DNA of 64,000 bases, from assembly GCA_015056575.1 (NCBI GenBank), contig SVGA01000001.1:1-64000 (forward strand), in the 5' to 3' direction. Below are positions 36,425 to 54,964 of this stretch, one piece after another (the stretch's first letter is position 1; each line of letters starts with the position of its first letter). The translations under genes were made by a program, and so were the position numbers. This stretch comes from Butyrivibrio sp. Lineage in GTDB: Bacteria > Bacillota > Clostridia > Lachnospirales > Lachnospiraceae. Below the pieces are notes generated by a model that saw only the letters and a program-made list of their open reading frames with translations, searched no databases and was not told the DNA's origin.

Positions 36425-39400
36425 ATGAAAAAAGGATTAGGAATATTTAACAGGAAAACCCGCAGGAGACGCCCTGCGAAAAGACAGGATAATTACAGGC
36501 GGGATGATTACTACCGCAACGACGATGCGGATTACGCCGATGACGTTGATTACGAGGATGATGCGGAGTATGAGGATGAATACGCCGACGAAGATTATCC
36601 TGACGAGGATTATGAAGACGGCGAGTACGCCGATGAAGATTATCCTGACGAGGATTATGAAGACGGCGAGTACGCCGATGAAGATTTCTCTGACGAGGAT
36701 TATGAAGATGGCGAGTATGCCGATGAGGATTATCCTGAAGAAGACCATGAAGATGGTAATAATTACGATAATGCCGCGGATGACGATGACGAGCCCTTCA
36801 TAGAGACCGAGTCCTGGAATTCGGAAGCCGTAGATAAGGCTGTAGGAATAGAAGAACCCGAAGAAATTGAGGAATCACCGGCGTTCAGCGAAGGTTCCAA
36901 CATCATTCATGTTGCAGCCTTTGACAGGATTGCCAACAACATAACCGATGATCGCGGTTCTCAAAACGATGACGCGGCAAAGACCGCGACTGCAGCGAAT
37001 ATAGATGCAGAGAGCATATCAGCAGAGACCAAAGCGTTAGATAATACTGCTTCCCTCGATAATGCAGCCTACTCTGACGAGGAGTACTACGAGGACGAGG
37101 ATTACTCCGATAAGGAGGATTATCGCGAGGAAGAGAAGCAGGATTACTCCGAGGAAGATGTTTCCGACGGGGATGATTATGACCCGGAGTACGATGAGGA
37201 TGACGACTCCTACGAAGATGAAGAATTCGAGCGCGAGTACGGCGATGAATCCGATGACGACTACCCTGAGGATGATGAGTTCGACAGGGAGCATAGCGAC
37301 GACGATCGCTACGACGAGGATGATGAAGATGATCGCTACGCCGCAGCAGGTTTAGGTGCAAAGGCTTGCAGAGACAGTCGCAATGCCCGCGGATCTGCCA
37401 GCCGCTCAGGCAGGAACTCCCGCCATGAACTGAACTACCGCGATTCTCGCAACGCAGGGAGAGATTTCCGAAGGAACACCCGCCGCAAGTCAGGAGCCGG
37501 CGCAGCTTTTGCGGCAGCAGGAGCCAAGATCGTTGAATTTTTCAAGAACACCGGCGCAGTGGAGCGCATCGCCATGTTTGTGGCGCTGCTGCTTTTGATC
37601 TGCGGTATTTCCCTTGCAGGCTTTTATTCAAAGGCTCTGGACAGAAAGAGTGATATCGACGCTTTCGCCGAGATTGGCCAGTCCCTCAGTGAGACCACCA
37701 TCATCGGACAGAGCGGTCTTATTGCCATGGCGGATGCTCAGAAGGCCAAGGCTCTGGCCGCCGGCATGATTGAAGAGGAAGAAGAGCAGCTCGAGGAAGA
37801 GGTTATTGAGGAGAACGAGACCATAAGCGTCAAGGTGACTCTTACCTCCATCAAGAGTGATATGAAGGTGAAGTTCATCAACTCTGAAACCAAGAAGCTC
37901 ATCAGCAATGTTCACTTCGAGATAGATGTTGTGACCCCTGATGGAACAAAGGTCACCTATGACGATCACGACAAAGACGGAATCATTTACAAGAAGGACA
38001 TAACCGCCGGCAAGTACAAGATCACACCCAAGGCCCTGTCCTCCGAATATGAGAACTACAAGCTGGATACCTCCACTCAGACTCTCACGGTAAAAGACAC
38101 GGTGGAGATGAAAGCGGTTGATGTCAGCGATGAGATCAAGAAAGAATCTCAGATAAATGCGGCCGTTGAGGATACGGCCGAGAAAACAGCTGTGGAATCC
38201 CAGCTTACCGATACGGTTGAGTGGGTGGAGAGCAACCAGAACAGCTCATCCTCCAGCCAGGAGAAATACAAGTACGAAGAGATCAACAGAAGCGATATTC
38301 CTGCCCCTTACACCTCAGGAAAGGCAACCGGAACAAATGTATATACCGCAGCAAGGACCAAGGTTGTTTCATCACTGACTTACCTTGGAAGAACAGAGGG
38401 AGGCGGAACAGAATCTTCTCAGCCTTCCGAGGGCGGAAGCACCGGCGAAGGCGGCTCGGGCAATAGCAGCGAGAGCGGAAACGCCGGTGAAGGCGGCTCC
38501 TCCGAGGGTGGAAATACAGGCGGTGGATCATCTGAAGGCGGTAATGAAGGCGGCTCCCAGGAAGAGCTGTACAGCATGGAAGTAACCCCTTCAAGCATCA
38601 CCCTGAAGGAAGGCGAAGAGGCAACCATCAGCGTGGCAGGACCTTCAAGCCCTGAGTTCAGTTCCTCCGACAGCGGCGTCGCTTCGGTATCAGGCGGCAA
38701 GGTGACAGCTGTCAAAGCCGGAGATGCCACCATTACAGTAAGCGCATCGGGATACAAGTCAGTTACGGTGAGCGTTCATGTTGAAACAGCACCGGAACCT
38801 ACTCCTGCTCCCGAGCCGGCAGACGCGGAGAAAAAGAGCTTTAAGATAAGCAAGAGTGAGCTTGTCCTCAAGAAGGGCGACAAGGAGAAGATTTCGGTAA
38901 GTGATGCTCCTTCCAAGATCACCTTTGAGACTTCCGATACCAAGATAGCGACAATTGCCGAAGACGGTACCGTTACTGCAGTTGCATCAGGTACAGCAAC
39001 CATTACGCTCAAGGCTGACGGTTACAACGATGGCAAGGTAACTGTCAAGGTTTCCGAATCCGACAAATACACCATGGAGCTCAACGCCACCAAGATAACC
39101 CTGAAGGTTGGCGGAACCTCCATCATAACAGCCAAGGGCCCCGAGAAGGTGACCTTCAAGTCCTCCAAGGATTCCGTTGCCACCGTTGACAAGAACGGCA
39201 AAGTAACCGCTGTCGCACCGGGAAGCGCAACGATCACCGTATCCTCCGACAAATATGAGGATGCCAAGGTTGAAGTGGTTGTCGAAGGCAACAAGACGGT
39301 CTTAAAGGATAAGGACGGAAACGTCGTTTACATCAAAAATGACGACGGCAGTTACAGAGAAGCCACCTACGATGATTATTACGGCAAGAAAACTCTTTAC

Positions 39401-45065: not shown

Positions 45066-46060
45066 CAGGATCAAAGAAGATCTCCAAGCAGCTTGTTCTG
45101 GTGATTTTCTATGCACTGGCGCTGGCTTTGGCGCTGCTTCTCATATTTCATAACAACCCATTGGCGGATCCCCACACTGAGATGCTCAAGAAGGTATGCG
45201 GATGTCTTCTTATCGGCATCAGTTGCATTCTGATCTTTGTGTGGTTCGACAGACTCATGGTGCTTCCCGTTGAGCTGTTTCATTCCAGGAAGCTCATAAA
45301 GCGCCTTGCCATCAATGATTTCAAGAAGCGCTATGCGGGTTCATACATGGGTATTGTGTGGGCACTGGCTCAGCCGGTGGTCACTGTTGTTATGTATTAC
45401 ATTGTTTTCGACATAGTATTCCGTCAAAGAGCCCAGGCGGTTTCAGGAGGTGTGGAGATTCCATACGTCCTGTTTCTTACGTCCGGACTTGTTCCCTGGT
45501 TCTTTTTTACTGAGGCTTTGACCAACGGCACCACTTCACTTCTTGAGTACAACTACCTGGTGAAGAAGGTTCTTTTCAAGATCAGTATTCTTCCCATTAT
45601 CAAGATAATTGCGGCTATGTTCATCCACGTGTTCTTCATTGGCGTTCTGATGATCATCGCCTGCGTATACGGGTATTATCCCAACATTTACTGGCTGCAG
45701 ATCATTTACTATGTGGGCTGCGAGTTCATCCTGGTGCTTTCGTTAAGCTACGCTACCTGCGCCATCGTGGTGTTCTTCAGAGACCTTCTGCAGATCATCA
45801 GCATCGTTCTGCAGCTGTTCCAGTGGGCAACCCCTATTCTCTGGAATATTGACATTGTTCCCGACAAATATCAGTGGATCATCAAGCTCAACCCCATGGT
45901 CTATATCGTGGAGGGTTTCAGAAATTCCATCTACGGCGACACCTGGTTCTTTGAGCACTTCTACTCATCCACCTATTTCTGGATCTTCGTGGTGGCTGCT
46001 TTCTGCCTGGGGGCGCTGATATTCAAACGCTCGAAGACTCACTTCGCAGACGTGTTATGA
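45038..46060 (+). CDS. ABC transporter permease, polysaccharide exporter (Wzm-like)
   Basis: NDFKKRYAGSYMGIVWALAQPVVTVVMYYIVF; followed by Wzt-like ATPase. Confidence 0.88.
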   Translation: MGRNQGVLLTGSKKISKQLVLVIFYALALALALLLIFHNNPLADPHTEMLKKVCGCLLIGISCILIFVWFDRLMVLPVELFHSRKLIKRLAINDFKKRYAGSYMGIVWALAQPVVTVVMYYIVFDIVFRQRAQAVSGGVEIPYVLFLTSGLVPWFFFTEALTNGTTSLLEYNYLVKKVLFKISILPIIKIIAAMFIHVFFIGVLMIIACVYGYYPNIYWLQIIYYVGCEFILVLSLSYATCAIVVFFRDLLQIISIVLQLFQWATPILWNIDIVPDKYQWIIKLNPMVYIVEGFRNSIYGDTWFFEHFYSSTYFWIFVVAAFCLGALIFKRSKTHFADVL

Positions 46061-46158
46061 TGCGCGAAGGATGAGCGGATCGATTTCTGAATGTTTGCAG
46101 GATTGCGAAAGCGCAGCGGAGCAATCCGTATCATTTACTATATTACTAAGGTATTCAC
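46061..46158 (+). repeat. dispersed structured intergenic element, homologous to part of the 152-bp repeats
   Basis: ggattgcgaaagcgcagcggagcaatccgtat resembles gatttgcggaagcgcagcggagcaaatcgtat with compensatory stem changes. Confidence 0.7.
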
Positions 46159-47576: not shown

Positions 47577-49742
47577 TTGCAGGAGATTATAAAGATAGGC
47601 GGTGTGAGCCTAAATTTCAAACATTATTCGGGGGTTGATCTCTACAGCGACGGTGCCATAGAGAACGACCTTCTTGAGATCGTAAAAAAGTACAAGAAGG
47701 AAGATTACCAAAAGGTCATCGAGGAGAGGGGCAGCTGGCCGATTCTCTACCATCTTTCCGAGCAGAGGGCCAATATCGTTGAGTGGATACCCATGGACAA
47801 GAATGCAAAGGTTCTTGAGGTGGGCTCAGGCTGCGGCGCCATCACAGGTATGCTATCAAGCAAGGCAAAAGAGGTAGTGGCCTGCGACCTGTCAAGACGA
47901 CGCTCCGAGATCAATGCCACCAGGAACAGTGACTGCGAGAATGTTACAATTCATGTGGGCAACTTCAGGGATATCGAGCCTGATCTTCCCAAGGACTTTG
48001 ACTACATCTTCCTCATCGGCGTTTTTGAGTACGGCCAGGGCTATATAGGAACAGACAGTCCCTATGAGAGATTCCTTAAGATGCTCCAGAGGCACCTTAA
48101 GAGAGGCGGAAGGATTGTCATCGCTATCGAGAACAGGTTGGGACTTAAGTACTTTGCCGGCTGCGCTGAGGATCATCTTGGTACCTATTTTACGGGGATC
48201 GAGGGCTACCCTGCGGACAGCGTTGCCAAGACCTTCTCAAGGAACGGGCTCATCAATATATTCAAGAAGTGCGGCATAAACGAGTACCACTTCTATTATC
48301 CTTACCCCGATTACAAGCTCATGACCATGATCCACTCGGATTCATATATGCCAAAGCACGGAGAGCTTCAGGACAATGTAAGGAATTTTGACAGGGACCG
48401 CATGGTGCTATTTAACGAGAAGCATGCCTACGAGGAACTGGTGCGGGACGGCATGTATGCTGATTTCGCCAACTCTTTTGAAGTAATACTGGGACCGGGA
48501 TTTGACACCATCTACAGTAAATACAGCAACGACCGCGTGGACGAATTCAAGATAAGGACCGACATCGCAATTGACCGCGCAGGCAGGAAGATCATCAAGA
48601 AGTTCCCTCTCACCGAGGCCGCCAAAGAGCACGTTTTCGGCATCAGGGACGCATACCTTAATCTTCTCGAGAAGTTCAGGGGAGGTGACCTGGAGATCAA
48701 TGACTGCCAGCTGAGCGAACAGGAAGGCTGTGCCATTTTTTCTTTTGTCAACGGAGTCCCGTTATCTTCGCTGCTTGATGAGTGTATCGACAGAGATGAC
48801 ATGGAGGGCTTCAACGCCCTTTTGAACGAGTACATCAAACGAATAGGTTACAAGGAGGATTATCCCGTCTCCGACTACGATCTGATATTCTCGAATATTA
48901 TGGTCAATGGGCCTATTTGGACTATAATAGATTATGAATGGACCTACGGTAAGTGCATTCCGGTAAAAGAGCAGGTGTGGAGAGCGCTCTACTGCTACAG
49001 ACTGGAAGACAGAAAGCGGGAACACTTCGATCCCAAGCCGGTTTACAAGAGGCTTGGCCTTACAGACAAGGAAATGTCCGAACTTCTGGAGGAGGAGTAT
49101 GCTTTCCAGAAATATGTTACCGGAAATCGCAAGTCCATGGTTGAGATATTTAAGGACATCGGCAGGAAAGTTTCGGTGCCCAGAGAACTTATGGAAAACG
49201 GCGAGGCTGCAAGGCCCGATGACTGCGTTCAGATATATCTGGATGAGGGCAGTGGCTATTCTGAGGAGGAATCCATTTTCCCTGAGGAGCAGTACGACGA
49301 GAACAATATAATCAATCTTGATATCAGGGTTTCCTCAGATTGCAGGAATGTCAGGGTAGACCCGGCATTTGCGCCCTGTATCGTGACGATCCTGGATGCC
49401 ACCTGGAACGGCAAATCCCTCTCCGACGGAAGCATGAACATCAGCATCCATCCCGGAAACGGCCAGTGGATCTCAGACGACACCATGGTGTTCAACACCG
49501 ATGACCCCAACATCGAGTTTGGACTTGAGAGTAACACCCTTAGCGTACAGGAGCGCAATCATCTGAAGCTGTCTCTTTTGATGGCTTTTCTGCCCAGTAA
49601 ATCAGCAGATGCGGTGGTTGAATCCGTGGAGGCTCAGGAGGAGAAGGCTTCCTCAAAGGGAGAGAGTATTCTCGGCAGGATTGGGAGAAAGATAAAGCAA
49701 AAACGCGAAGAAAAGTTCTATAAAGACGAGGAGTGGGACTAA
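47577..49742 (+). CDS. large methyltransferase-domain protein with extra C-terminal domains (TTG start)
   Basis: AKVLEVGSGCGAITGMLSSKAKEVVACDLS; downstream kinase-like NDCQLSEQEGCAIFSFVNG...DYDLIFSNIMVNGPIWTIIDYEWTYG. Confidence 0.75.
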   Translation: MQEIIKIGGVSLNFKHYSGVDLYSDGAIENDLLEIVKKYKKEDYQKVIEERGSWPILYHLSEQRANIVEWIPMDKNAKVLEVGSGCGAITGMLSSKAKEVVACDLSRRRSEINATRNSDCENVTIHVGNFRDIEPDLPKDFDYIFLIGVFEYGQGYIGTDSPYERFLKMLQRHLKRGGRIVIAIENRLGLKYFAGCAEDHLGTYFTGIEGYPADSVAKTFSRNGLINIFKKCGINEYHFYYPYPDYKLMTMIHSDSYMPKHGELQDNVRNFDRDRMVLFNEKHAYEELVRDGMYADFANSFEVILGPGFDTIYSKYSNDRVDEFKIRTDIAIDRAGRKIIKKFPLTEAAKEHVFGIRDAYLNLLEKFRGGDLEINDCQLSEQEGCAIFSFVNGVPLSSLLDECIDRDDMEGFNALLNEYIKRIGYKEDYPVSDYDLIFSNIMVNGPIWTIIDYEWTYGKCIPVKEQVWRALYCYRLEDRKREHFDPKPVYKRLGLTDKEMSELLEEEYAFQKYVTGNRKSMVEIFKDIGRKVSVPRELMENGEAARPDDCVQIYLDEGSGYSEEESIFPEEQYDENNIINLDIRVSSDCRNVRVDPAFAPCIVTILDATWNGKSLSDGSMNISIHPGNGQWISDDTMVFNTDDPNIEFGLESNTLSVQERNHLKLSLLMAFLPSKSADAVVESVEAQEEKASSKGESILGRIGRKIKQKREEKFYKDEEWD

Positions 49743-51868
49743 GGGGAATGCTTAAGGACCTGGCGAAGGAGGCGCTTGTAAAGCGCAGGATAAAAAAATA
49801 CGACAAGATGGTGGCTGCCAAGTCTTCGGCCTATGATAAGTGGCAGAAAGCCATGGAAAAAGAGCCTGTTGCCAAGCGCGAGGCTCCCATCCGCTACGAG
49901 GAAGGTCCGGACGGGGAGATGATCCCCCACAAGAAGCCGGAACCCACTGTCAAGGTCATTCCCTATGCCAAGGTCTGGGAAGTTTCTGATGTCAAAAAAG
50001 ATGACAATGTGGTCTACATCTTTGTGAGCCCCAAGGGCAAGCTGGTTAAGAAGGCCCAGGAAGTCATCAGGCAGTACTTTATTGCCCACCCCGAACACAA
50101 TGTAGTTTACGGAGACGAGGACGAGATTTCATCCAATGGAAAGTATATTCATCCCTATTTTAAGCCCGACTGGTCTCCGGATTCATATCTCAATGCCTTC
50201 TATATAGGCAGTTTCTTTGCCTGCAGGGCTGAGACCATGCATGCAAGTGCAGTTGAATATGACAATGCAGTAAGGATGCTTGGGGGCACCGCCAATAAGC
50301 GGGGCTCGGTAGAGCAGACCGGGCTGGAGGCATCTCTTTTGTCCGCGGATGTACTGTTCTGTATGCTTGCCATACATGAACATGCCTTTGGAAAGCGCAT
50401 GGGGCTTGAGTTCCCCATCGGGCACATTAAAGAGGTGCTGTTCCACAGAAGTCCCGAGCAGGATGTGTTCTACGGAAGGAACTTCCACAGCTCCAGGCAT
50501 ATGCTGCTTAAGCCTACAACGGTCAGCATTGTCATTCCTTCTATGGATCATCCGGAAATTCTCAATCAGTGTCTGAATTCAATAATTGAGACCAACACCG
50601 ACGAGAACATAACCTTCGATGTGGTCATCGTGGACAACGGCAGCAGTGCCGCCAACAGGGTGAAGTATGGCGTTTATGCAAGCCGTGCCCCCAGAAAGAA
50701 TGGTCTGACCAAAATCAACTATATCTACAAGCTTCAGGAGTTCAACTTCTCCGCCATGTGCAATCAGGGGGCAAGGAATTGCCAGGGTGAGTATCTTCTG
50801 TTCATGAACGATGACATCGAGTGCGTCAAGGAAGGGTGGCTTCGGGAGATGATTTCCCAGGCTCAGCTTGGGCATGTGGGTGCAGTGGGAGCAAAGCTTA
50901 TTTACCCCGATACCGATCTTATCCAGCATGCAGGCATTGCCAACGTGCGTCGGGGACCGGTTCACAAGCTGCAGAAGATGCACGATAACAAGAACCATTA
51001 CTTTGGATATAACAGGGGAATTCACAACATGATCGGCGTGACTGCCGCGTGTCTCATGATAAGCCGCAAGAAGTTTGCCGCTGTGGACGGTTTCCCTGAG
51101 GAACTTAAGGTGGCCTTCAACGATGTTGATTTCTGTTACAGCATCCACGAAAAGGGCTACTACAATGTGTGCTGCAATCACATTTATCTTTATCATCACG
51201 AGTCCCTGACAAGGGGCCTTGATAACCTGGATCCCAAGAAGATGGAGAGGCTTGCGGTTGAGGGAGATACGCTTATGACCAGGCATTCTCACCTCTACAA
51301 CGTTGATCCTTTCTACAGTCCGCACCTTACCGAGGATGAGACTATTTCGGCTATCATTCCCAAGGAGGACTATACTCCTGTGGAAGACCTGCCTCTTGCT
51401 GAGGTTTCCATCCATGAGAAGGGAATTCACGGCGCCAGAGAAGATCAGTGCCTGCGTATAGGCTGCGAGTACAACGGGACTATGGACAACTGGCTCTACG
51501 GAGTTACGGCTGTGGGGCACGAAGAGGGCTACTTCCTCAAAGGCTACAGCTTCGTCATCGGCTCCGACAATGCTATTTACGACAAGAAGCTTCTGCTCAG
51601 GCAGGTTGAGCGCCGGCAGGACGGCGCCGGCCCGGTGAACTCCAAGGTTTACAGTATTTCGCCCTACATCTGGTACCGCCCGGACATCCGGGTGCGTCTC
51701 CAGGATCAGGTCAACGTGGACCTCACCGGATACAAAGTCCGCATAGATAAGAACACCCTTCCGGCAGGGTATTATCAGATTGGCATGCTGGCCATAGACC
51801 GCACCAGCCGTCTGAAGCTGATCAACTGGGTGCCAAACATACTGAGAATAAGGGATTCAAGGTTATAG
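49733..51868 (+). CDS. GT2 family glycosyltransferase (rhamnosyltransferase-like), start possibly 49748
   Basis: VSIVIPSMDHPEILNQCLNSI; EYLLFMNDDIECVKEGWLREM; AFNDVDFCYSIHEKGYYNVCCNHIYLYHHESLTRG. Confidence 0.88.
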   Translation: MGLRGMLKDLAKEALVKRRIKKYDKMVAAKSSAYDKWQKAMEKEPVAKREAPIRYEEGPDGEMIPHKKPEPTVKVIPYAKVWEVSDVKKDDNVVYIFVSPKGKLVKKAQEVIRQYFIAHPEHNVVYGDEDEISSNGKYIHPYFKPDWSPDSYLNAFYIGSFFACRAETMHASAVEYDNAVRMLGGTANKRGSVEQTGLEASLLSADVLFCMLAIHEHAFGKRMGLEFPIGHIKEVLFHRSPEQDVFYGRNFHSSRHMLLKPTTVSIVIPSMDHPEILNQCLNSIIETNTDENITFDVVIVDNGSSAANRVKYGVYASRAPRKNGLTKINYIYKLQEFNFSAMCNQGARNCQGEYLLFMNDDIECVKEGWLREMISQAQLGHVGAVGAKLIYPDTDLIQHAGIANVRRGPVHKLQKMHDNKNHYFGYNRGIHNMIGVTAACLMISRKKFAAVDGFPEELKVAFNDVDFCYSIHEKGYYNVCCNHIYLYHHESLTRGLDNLDPKKMERLAVEGDTLMTRHSHLYNVDPFYSPHLTEDETISAIIPKEDYTPVEDLPLAEVSIHEKGIHGAREDQCLRIGCEYNGTMDNWLYGVTAVGHEEGYFLKGYSFVIGSDNAIYDKKLLLRQVERRQDGAGPVNSKVYSISPYIWYRPDIRVRLQDQVNVDLTGYKVRIDKNTLPAGYYQIGMLAIDRTSRLKLINWVPNILRIRDSRL

Positions 51869-52335
51869 CTTGCTGCTGCTTGCAGCGAGCAAGCTATGAC
51901 TTTGAAGACCAAACACGTATGAGGAAGCAGGACGGTAGTCCGGATTCCGAATACGTGGAGATTTGCGGAAGCGCAGCGGAGCAAATCGTATTCTCAATTT
52001 AAATAGATTCAAGGTTATAGCCTGCTGCTGCTTGCAGCAGGCAAGCTATAACTTTGAAGACCAAACACGTATGAGGAAGCAGGACGGTAGTCCGGATTCC
52101 GAATAGGTGGAGATTTGCGGAAGCGCAGCGGAGCAAATCGTATTCTCAATTTAAATAGATTCAAGGTTATAGCTTGCTGCTGCTTGCAGCAGGCAAGCTA
52201 TAACTTTGAAGACCAAACACGTATGAGGAAGCAGGACGATAGTCCGGATTCCGAATAGGTGGAGATTTGCGGAAGCGCAGCGGAGCAAATCGTATTCTCA
52301 ATTTAAATAGATTCAAGGTTATAGCCTGCTGCTTG
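51855..52335 (+). repeat. 152-bp tandem repeat: three full copies (51855-52006, 52007-52158, 52159-52310) plus a truncated fourth
   Basis: nearly identical units starting attcaaggttatag; each contains a CUUG-capped hairpin and a gatttgc/gcaaatc hairpin. Confidence 0.95.
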
Positions 52336-52690
52336 CGTAATTGGATATGTGCGGCGTACTTACAAGATTTCGATGATTTTTACAGGAGGTTTCCGACACA
52401 ATTGTCTTTGATGGGACTTTGCGTGGGTGAAATTGACGAAATAACATACAGAAAACGCAGAACGAAAACGCTATCCCGACAACTATGCGCTCAAAAAGGC
52501 CATTTACCGATATAACGTCAAGTTTTGGGGCTATTTTACCTACTCAATCAGCTTGTAGAACACTTTGCGTTGGAAAGAGCTCAATTCACATGCTCTTCGC
52601 ACTATCACACCTGATTATACCAAACGCAAGAAAACCTGAATTCCGGTTTGTACAATAGATACATTTTTGTAAAATGATACATGAATATAT

Positions 52691-52740
52691 TCAAGTTCAT
52701 AGCCTACTGCTGCTTGCAGCGAGCAAGCTATGACTTTGAA
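52691..52740 (+). repeat. partial copy of the 152-bp repeat 5' segment in the leader of the next GT2 gene
   Basis: attcaagttcatagcctactgctgcttgcagcgagcaagctatgactttgaaga. Confidence 0.85.
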
Positions 52741-52756
52741 GATTTACGAGGAAATT

Positions 52757-54964
52757 ATGTCACAGGAAATGGATTACAAGGCCGCCTACGAGCGGGAGAA
52801 ATTAAAAACTGCGGATCTGGCGGGCAGGATTGCCGAGCTGGAGGACAAGAACCAGGAGCTTGAATTCAAGCTTAACAGGATCAAGAACAATCCCATCTGG
52901 AAAGCCTCCACACCGGCGCGAAATGCCATGCACTGGGTAATCCGCCAACGAGACAGGATCAGAAATCAGGGTTCACTAAAGGGCGTCATCGCCAAGATCA
53001 GGTACAAGCAGGTTGAGAAGAGAGCCATGACTCACTATGGCACTGAGAGCTTCCCCTCAGAGGAGACAAGGAAGCAGCAGGAGAGTGCGGTATTTGAGAA
53101 GATGCCTCTTATTTCCATACTGGTTCCCCTTTACAACACACCCGAGAAGTTCTTAAGAGACATGATCGAGTCAGTGCTGGATCAGACCTACGGAAACTGG
53201 CAGCTGTGCCTGGCCGATGGCTCCGATGACGAGCACGTTGGACTTGTTCAGACCATTGTAAAAGAGTATCAGGCAGACCCAAGAGCCTTGCGAAAAGCCG
53301 CAAATGCCGGTTCCGGCGCGGCAGGTGACTTAGAAAAAAGCGCAGCAGGCGATTCGGTAAAGAGCACGGAGGCAGGCTGCAGGATCAAGTACCAGAAACT
53401 TGCAAAGAACGAGGGCATTGCCGGAAACACCAATCATTGCCTGGAGCTGGCTGACGGAGAATACATCGGACTTTTTGACCACGATGATATCCTTCATCCT
53501 GAGGTTCTCTACTGGTATGTAAAAGCCATCAACGAGCAGAATGCAGACTACATCTACTGTGATGAGACAACCTTCAAGGGTGACGACATCAACAGGATGA
53601 TAACCATGCATTTTAAGCCTGATTACGCCATCGATAACCTGAGGGCCAACAACTACATCTGTCACTTTAGTGTGTTCAAAAGAACTCTTCTGGATGGCAC
53701 AGAACTCTTCAGACCCAAGTTCGACGGAAGCCAGGACCATGACATGATCCTGCGCCTTACCGACAGGGCGGAGCACATCGTACATGTGCCCAAGCTCCTC
53801 TACTACTGGAGAAGCCATGCGGGAAGTGTTGCATCAGATATCAGTGCCAAGCCCTATGCCATAGATGCTGCCAAGGGTGCTGTAGCAGATCACCTGCGCC
53901 GTCACGGCTACGATCACTTCAAGATCACCAGCACAAGAGCCTTTGAGACAATTTTCAAGATTACTTATGAGGTTCAGGGAACTCCCAAGATCTCAATTGT
54001 CATACCTAACTGTGAGCACAAAGATGACCTCAAGAGATGCATAGATTCCATCTATGAGAAGTCTGTATATGACAACTACGAGATCGTCGTTGTGGAGAAC
54101 AATTCCAAGGGCAGCGAGATCCGCGGTTATTACGAGGAACTTAGAACCGGTGCTCTTAAGGACATCGTCAAGGTGGTTGATTTTACCGCTGCTAAGAAGG
54201 CAGGAGAAATCCCCGAGAAGAAGGCTGCGACATCTGAAAGCACACCCAAGGATGGTGCCACTGCATCATCAGCACCTGCCAATGCTAACGCTGCCTACGA
54301 CGCACCCTTTAACTTCTCGGCTGTTGTAAACTACGGCGTATCACAGTCCACAGGAGAGTATATCATTCTTCTCAACAACGACACTCAGGTCATTACCGTG
54401 AACTGGATGGAAGAGCTCCTGATGTATGCCCAGAGAGAGGACGTTGGAGCAGTTGGTGGAAAGCTCTATTTCCCGGACCGCAAGATACAGCATGCAGGTG
54501 TTGTGCTTAAACTCGGAGCGCACAGAACAGCAGGACATTCCCATTACGGACAGGCCGGCATGAACCTGGGTTACATGGGGCGTCTTTGCTACGCTCAGGA
54601 TGTGAGCGCAGTAACCGGAGCATGCCTCATGGTATCAAGAGCTAAATGGGATGAGGTTGGCGGCTTCGACGAGAGCTTCCAGGTGAGTCTCAACGACGTG
54701 GACTTCTGTCTGAAACTCCGCGACAAGGGATACCTCAACGTATTCACTCCATTTGCTGGGCTGTTCCACTATGAGTCATTGTCCAGGGGTCTTGACCTTG
54801 AGGGAAAGAACGCTAAACGCTACGAGATAGAATCCGAACACTTCAAAACAAAGTGGAAGGAAGTGCTTGATAAAGGAGATCCCTACTACAATCCCAACTT
54901 CTCCCTGGACCGCAGCGACTACAGCCTGAATGTTGAAGGCTATTCAAGCCTGAGAACCCAGTGA
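52757..54964 (+). CDS. GT2 family glycosyltransferase, two GT2-type domains (ORF extends to 52730)
   Basis: ISILVPLYNTPEKFLRDMIESVLDQTYGNWQL and KISIVIPNCEHKDDLKRCIDSIYEKS; ATG at 52757 with gagga SD. Confidence 0.9.
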   Translation: MSQEMDYKAAYEREKLKTADLAGRIAELEDKNQELEFKLNRIKNNPIWKASTPARNAMHWVIRQRDRIRNQGSLKGVIAKIRYKQVEKRAMTHYGTESFPSEETRKQQESAVFEKMPLISILVPLYNTPEKFLRDMIESVLDQTYGNWQLCLADGSDDEHVGLVQTIVKEYQADPRALRKAANAGSGAAGDLEKSAAGDSVKSTEAGCRIKYQKLAKNEGIAGNTNHCLELADGEYIGLFDHDDILHPEVLYWYVKAINEQNADYIYCDETTFKGDDINRMITMHFKPDYAIDNLRANNYICHFSVFKRTLLDGTELFRPKFDGSQDHDMILRLTDRAEHIVHVPKLLYYWRSHAGSVASDISAKPYAIDAAKGAVADHLRRHGYDHFKITSTRAFETIFKITYEVQGTPKISIVIPNCEHKDDLKRCIDSIYEKSVYDNYEIVVVENNSKGSEIRGYYEELRTGALKDIVKVVDFTAAKKAGEIPEKKAATSESTPKDGATASSAPANANAAYDAPFNFSAVVNYGVSQSTGEYIILLNNDTQVITVNWMEELLMYAQREDVGAVGGKLYFPDRKIQHAGVVLKLGAHRTAGHSHYGQAGMNLGYMGRLCYAQDVSAVTGACLMVSRAKWDEVGGFDESFQVSLNDVDFCLKLRDKGYLNVFTPFAGLFHYESLSRGLDLEGKNAKRYEIESEHFKTKWKEVLDKGDPYYNPNFSLDRSDYSLNVEGYSSLRTQ

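Follow-up and report, generated by a model that had tools for sequence, protein, structure and literature searches.

The window, a 64,000-nucleotide stretch of a Butyrivibrio genome (nearest named relative Butyrivibrio sp. FCS014, with 98% identity in the upstream GT2 protein), carries a tandem array with a 152-bp unit between two GT2 genes. The array and the features that bear on its interpretation, all on the plus strand, are as follows.

46017–46133, plus strand: weak remnant of RF01699, with a transporter gene on either side (21.9 bits, below the gathering score; 79% DNA match)
49733–51868, plus strand: upstream GT2 gene; the element covers its final codons and stop (PF00535, E = 3.5e-15; orthologue comparison)
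51843–51849, plus strand: 5′ outer-stem arm TGAGAAT, the sole copy in the array
51843–51996, plus strand: first full RF01699 element, with both outer-stem arms (104.1 bits)
51854–52333, plus strand: 152-bp tandem array of 3.2 copies, its units marked by GATTCAAGG direct repeats
51998–52148, plus strand: second RF01699 copy, lacking a matching 5′ outer arm of its own (85.0 bits)
52150–52300, plus strand: third RF01699 copy, likewise lacking a matching 5′ outer arm (90.3 bits)
52310–52335, plus strand: partial fourth copy, broken in hairpin 1
52336–52684, plus strand: unrelated dispersed repeat inside the 3′ end of the array, splitting its last copies
52684–52742, plus strand: terminal partial copy, hairpin 1 only (88% to the unit)
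52757–54964, plus strand: downstream GT2 gene (PF00535; start corrected from the ORF start at 52730)

The downstream gene probably starts at 52757, as this start is conserved in orthologues. Elsewhere in the window, a 45-bp tandem repeat of D/E/Y-rich codons (36581–36786) lies inside an ORF of 1249 aa.

Tandem Repeats Finder assigned the array a period of 152, 3.2 copies and 97% matches, resolving into three contiguous units (51854–52005, 52006–52157 and 52158–52309) and a broken fourth, with GATTCAAGG repeated directly at 51854, 52006, 52158 and 52310. The three units differ pairwise by 5, 5 and 2 substitutions. The first-pass annotation had recognized three contiguous copies with few differences but had omitted the partial copy at 52684–52742, the unrelated repeat at 52336–52684 and the single TGAGAAT arm. 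A single unit is predicted to fold at −60.1 kcal/mol (shuffled mean −37.0, z = −6.7) into three hairpins: hairpin 1, GGTTATAGC..CUUG..GCTATAAC; the middle hairpin, ACGTATGAGGA..TCCGAATACGT; and hairpin 3, gatttgc..gcaaatc. Hairpins 1 and 3 had been described before and both exist, but the middle hairpin, the most conserved of the three, had been missed. The units are contiguous, with no unique spacers and no variable template, so that the readings as a CRISPR or a diversity-generating repeat were rejected, in agreement with the first-pass annotation. A phage or plasmid source was also rejected, as blastn gave no match in either collection.

The repeat at 52336–52684 belongs to a second family with about 10 copies in the same genome and nine matches in another (G009). 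It gave no Pfam match in any forward frame, and its reading as a transposase relic was abandoned in favor of another dispersed repeat. The family takes in 52336–52684 in the window together with L347, L348, L350 and L352–L359, and some of its copies contain tandem subunits of ~52 bp around CTGCAGACTGCGCAATTGGATATGTACGGC.

Using a covariance model, all three units were matched to Rfam family RF01699, the Clostridiales-1 RNA, over model positions 1–166, with the bit scores listed above set against a gathering score of 48 bits. The model comprises three hairpins and an outer stem; conservation across the family is highest in the loops AUGAGcA and CGGAaUgCGAAU of the middle hairpin. In the array, three 3′ arms (ATTCTCA at 51990, 52142 and 52294) are available as partners for the one TGAGAAT arm, which can pair with a single one of them at a time, and the outer stems of copies 2 and 3 contain mismatches. 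RF01699 has no assigned function and carries the Rfam type 'Gene; sRNA'; it was reported as a structured RNA candidate and judged not to be cis-regulatory ('y n n') (Weinberg et al. 2010, PMC2864571). The window units share its sequence and its three-hairpin fold, but what was catalogued as a small RNA candidate here forms the body of an inserted DNA repeat, in tandem. The earlier suggestion of a new mobile repeat holds for the mobility (see below) but not for the novelty of the sequence family. No report linking Clostridiales-1 RNA to transposition was found in the literature searched, a search that left most subscription journals outside its range.

The element is not confined to the GT2 site, the restriction that the first-pass annotation had named among the signs against its own reading. 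The genome contains 28 copies of this short, non-coding sequence, dispersed over about 19 sites, and tandem sites occur on contigs C32, C13, C8, C33, C5 and C23 in addition to the window array. All 61 genomes of the genus that were searched (own genome included) contain a match, above the cutoff in 59, with 1–33 copies each. In a survey of the wider family with one genome per genus, RF01699 was present in 84/150 Lachnospiraceae genomes, and across the class it was found in only 9/288 genomes, nearly all from this same family, whose members live in the gut and rumen. The genomes G059 and G042 count as separate species, and the 155-nt element cores of L333 (G059) and L067 (G042) are identical, suggesting either that the element was transferred recently or that the two genomes diverged very recently.

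The copies in the window's own genome, the array included, lack both the right-end hairpin and recognizable target duplications, and we therefore infer their insertion from relatives. One such genome, G042, contains 14 near-identical RF01699 copies, spread over two replicons and both strands, whose inverted ends are TGACGTAAGGGTCAAAAG and TGAGGTAGGTGTCAAAAG. These copies overrun the Rfam model on the right, where an added hairpin terminates with the left end in inverted orientation, and the same right-extended design is present in other genera (G098, G134, G087, G062 and G171). The terminal inverted repeats are about 18 bp long in copies from relatives (TGATACCAGGGTCAAAAGG versus TGATGTAGGGGTCAAAAGG; element ends TGATNNNRGGGTCAAAAGG), whereas the window copy retains only the outer stem TGAGAAT/ATTCTCA. 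Among the copies in relatives that have a right end, 53 of 68 are flanked by an exact 5-bp AT-rich target duplication; when left and right flanks were shuffled, the mean was 4.7 and the maximum 12 of 68. Two of the G042 insertions have clean empty sites in G059, with the sequence uninterrupted and one copy of the target. In one G042 insertion, the element directly follows a stop codon and TCTGA is duplicated. Since the element starts with TGA and its targets are AT-rich, a position at stop codons comes as no surprise. Judged by its near-identical dispersed copies, inverted ends, 5-bp duplications and empty sites, RF01699 is best classified as a MITE.

A MITE of this kind would be mobilized in trans by a putative transposase. 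MITE ends did not accompany any of 26 PF01609 matches in six genomes or 12 PF00665 matches in two genomes, and searches for an autonomous partner with the terminal inverted repeats in G042, G098, G134 and G062 produced no transposase candidate; the candidate inverted pairs 0.8–3 kb apart in G042 and G098 enclosed ordinary genes.

Shorter derivatives, consisting of the ends only or of one hairpin, also exist. L279 (G098:C3:83154-83224) is a 71-bp derivative with both ends, a target duplication and hairpin 1 as a near-perfect palindrome; G098 as a whole has about 190 element-end matches in 3.7 Mb. In L081–L084 (G042), the third hairpin bears an extra inserted hairpin, GCGCAAGACATCC..GGATGTCTGCTTTGCGCC, and this variant looks as if modules can be swapped. 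The copies L344 (G020) and L345 (G028) stop at the Rfam outer stem and are directly flanked by TATAA repeats; they may be a mobile form that is itself shorter, or may have lost the right-end hairpin between ATCATAT repeats. A different dispersed element in G042, AATCGAGTAGG..TTGCACAAGACCGGC (L088 and L090–L093, some copies beside tRNA or rRNA genes), shares with RF01699 only the middle-hairpin motif AACATGGAGCAC..GTGCGGAATGTT.

To follow the history of the array, 45 orthologous GT2 sites were compared. Five contain the full element (the window, L098, L109, L114 and L121), five a fragment and 35 none, with presence and absence scattered over the tree and differing between sister species. The five full copies all begin at the same codon, which suggests one old insertion followed by many losses, with repeated insertion at this site as a possible alternative. 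As most Butyrivibrio species have no element here, it appears dispensable at the GT2 site, with no essential role there. The nearest relatives, FCS014 and RUI079 (L094 and L095), keep hairpin 1 alone, the same state as at 52684–52742. In L098, L114 and L121, a partial second copy of the 5′ part of the element is present on the 3′ side, and tandem duplication has therefore happened repeatedly at this site. The right-end hairpin holds the left-end sequence as a direct repeat ~150 bp away, and tandem junctions in G098 and G134 (L233, L248 and L250) join at this repeat. The simplest explanation for the array is that it arose by unequal crossover or slippage between such direct repeats.

Orientation and pairing were considered for signs of a role in RNA. 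On simple ORF calls, which make the distances approximate, the upstream gene lies in the sense of the element at 19/19 sites in the window's own genome (P = 4e-6) and at 25/30 in a Butyrivibrio sample of one copy per genome (P = 3e-4), against 15/30, and thus no orientation bias, in other Lachnospiraceae genera (Butyrivibrio versus other genera, Fisher P = 0.013). Most Butyrivibrio copies lack the right-end hairpin, and many sit in sense at the upstream gene's stop codon. For the five orthologous copies at the GT2 site, pairing holds in 91.7% of cells, and both sides have changed in 31 of the 57 pairs; none of 500 shuffles was as high, and slid controls reached at most 6. The outer stem covaries even though its 5′ arm encodes GT2 residues. 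Covariation of this strength suggests more than tolerance at this site. The plus strand folds better than the minus strand in 77/78 copies, although the copies share ancestry. In a wobble-pair strand test, hairpin 1 showed no bias in Butyrivibrio and a mild bias in other genera, and the orthologous set gave GU 13 versus AC 5 (P = 0.1). Because strand bias is lacking within Butyrivibrio, the pairing of hairpin 1 may be maintained at the DNA level. The consistent sense orientation in the window's genome and the strongly conserved pairing make an effect at the mRNA level plausible.

The first-pass annotation proposed that the repeat arose by capture and amplification of the 3′ end of the GT2 gene. 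The final codons of the upstream gene, stop included, do fall within the first copy, and each unit starts with the sequence that forms those codons. However, the same element occurs at about 19 other sites in the genome and across the family, without the GT2 gene, and orthologous GT2 genes that lack the element end in other residues. The direction of capture is therefore reversed, the element sitting on the gene end and supplying its tail, and we give the capture of a gene tail almost no credence. Its further proposal of a recombination substrate for glycosyltransferase exchange finds no support, as elsewhere the element adjoins unrelated genes. A small RNA gene in its own right, acting in trans and with several paralogues in each genome, would agree with the Rfam type, with the conserved structure and loops and with the absence of a tie to one downstream gene family; we judge it improbable, given the target duplications and empty sites seen with identical copies, the copies that abut stop codons inside operons or overlap coding sequence, and the spread of 1–33 copies within one genus.

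A regulatory RNA exapted from the MITE carries greater weight but is still doubtful. Here, the former MITE in Butyrivibrio would set the ratio of upstream to downstream product, for example through RNase III cleavage of hairpin 1 or protection of the 3′ end of the upstream mRNA, and tandem copies would tune the dosage. It draws on the sense bias that separates Butyrivibrio from other genera, on the stop codons that the element abuts at most sites, on the compensatory changes at one orthologous site and on the folding preference for the plus strand; there are also precedents in RNase III-cut Correia elements and in ERIC, which unmasks an RNase E site (PMC10969869). Against it, 35 of the 45 orthologous GT2 sites have no element and sister species differ, the genes adjoining the different sites have no evident function in common, and the orientation bias could also result from harm done by antisense copies. 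The same evidence bears on the earlier suggestion of a processed or stabilizing RNA: sense orientation and covariation favor a role at the RNA level, but most species do without the element at this locus. We offer only tentatively the broader view that Butyrivibrio has recruited the MITE as RNA modules between genes, placed at stop codons in the sense direction only and adjustable in copy number by tandem expansion, while a conserved three-stem RNA body is kept in about half of the sampled Lachnospiraceae genera.

On balance, the array is likely to go back to an old insertion of a MITE of the Lachnospiraceae, the entire body of which is the RF01699 three-hairpin fold. The element would have inserted in the sense direction where the upstream GT2 gene ends, leaving the 5′ arm of the element to encode the last residues and stop of that gene. 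Left-end copies on both sides of the body (GATTCAAGG) would let crossover or slippage add and remove 152-bp units, giving three in the window strain and a lone hairpin in its nearest relatives. Co-transcribed with the operon, the element is predicted to fold into a stable intercistronic structure that is most likely tolerated and affects the stability or processing of the GT2 mRNA mildly at most.

Several known repeats resemble this arrangement. The BOX element of Streptococcus pneumoniae is likewise dispersed and non-autonomous, with an RNA-like fold and variable tandem modules, and is thought to affect co-transcribed genes (PMC3049150); its repetition is limited to the internal boxB module, whereas here the unit is nearly the whole element body. 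The ERIC and Correia (NEMIS) MITEs are also short, lie in or next to transcribed genes and fold in mRNA, with orientation-dependent effects and demonstrated effects of RNases (PMC10969869). They differ in host and sequence. BrickBuilt from Porphyromonas gingivalis (PMC4596501) provides another tandem array inside a MITE, but its repeat is 23 nt long, it is strictly intergenic and it belongs to another phylum.

What is new here is that RF01699 emerges as a family of mobile elements, and that its Butyrivibrio copies are sense-oriented at stop codons inside probable operons. As target duplications and empty sites show the family behaving like a mobile element, its annotation as an RNA gene is probably misleading and the catalogue entry probably needs rethinking. 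The family also provides a natural test of how operons tolerate or recruit a transposable repeat whose RNA fold is conserved, for which cultured Butyrivibrio offer many sites with and without the element for comparison.
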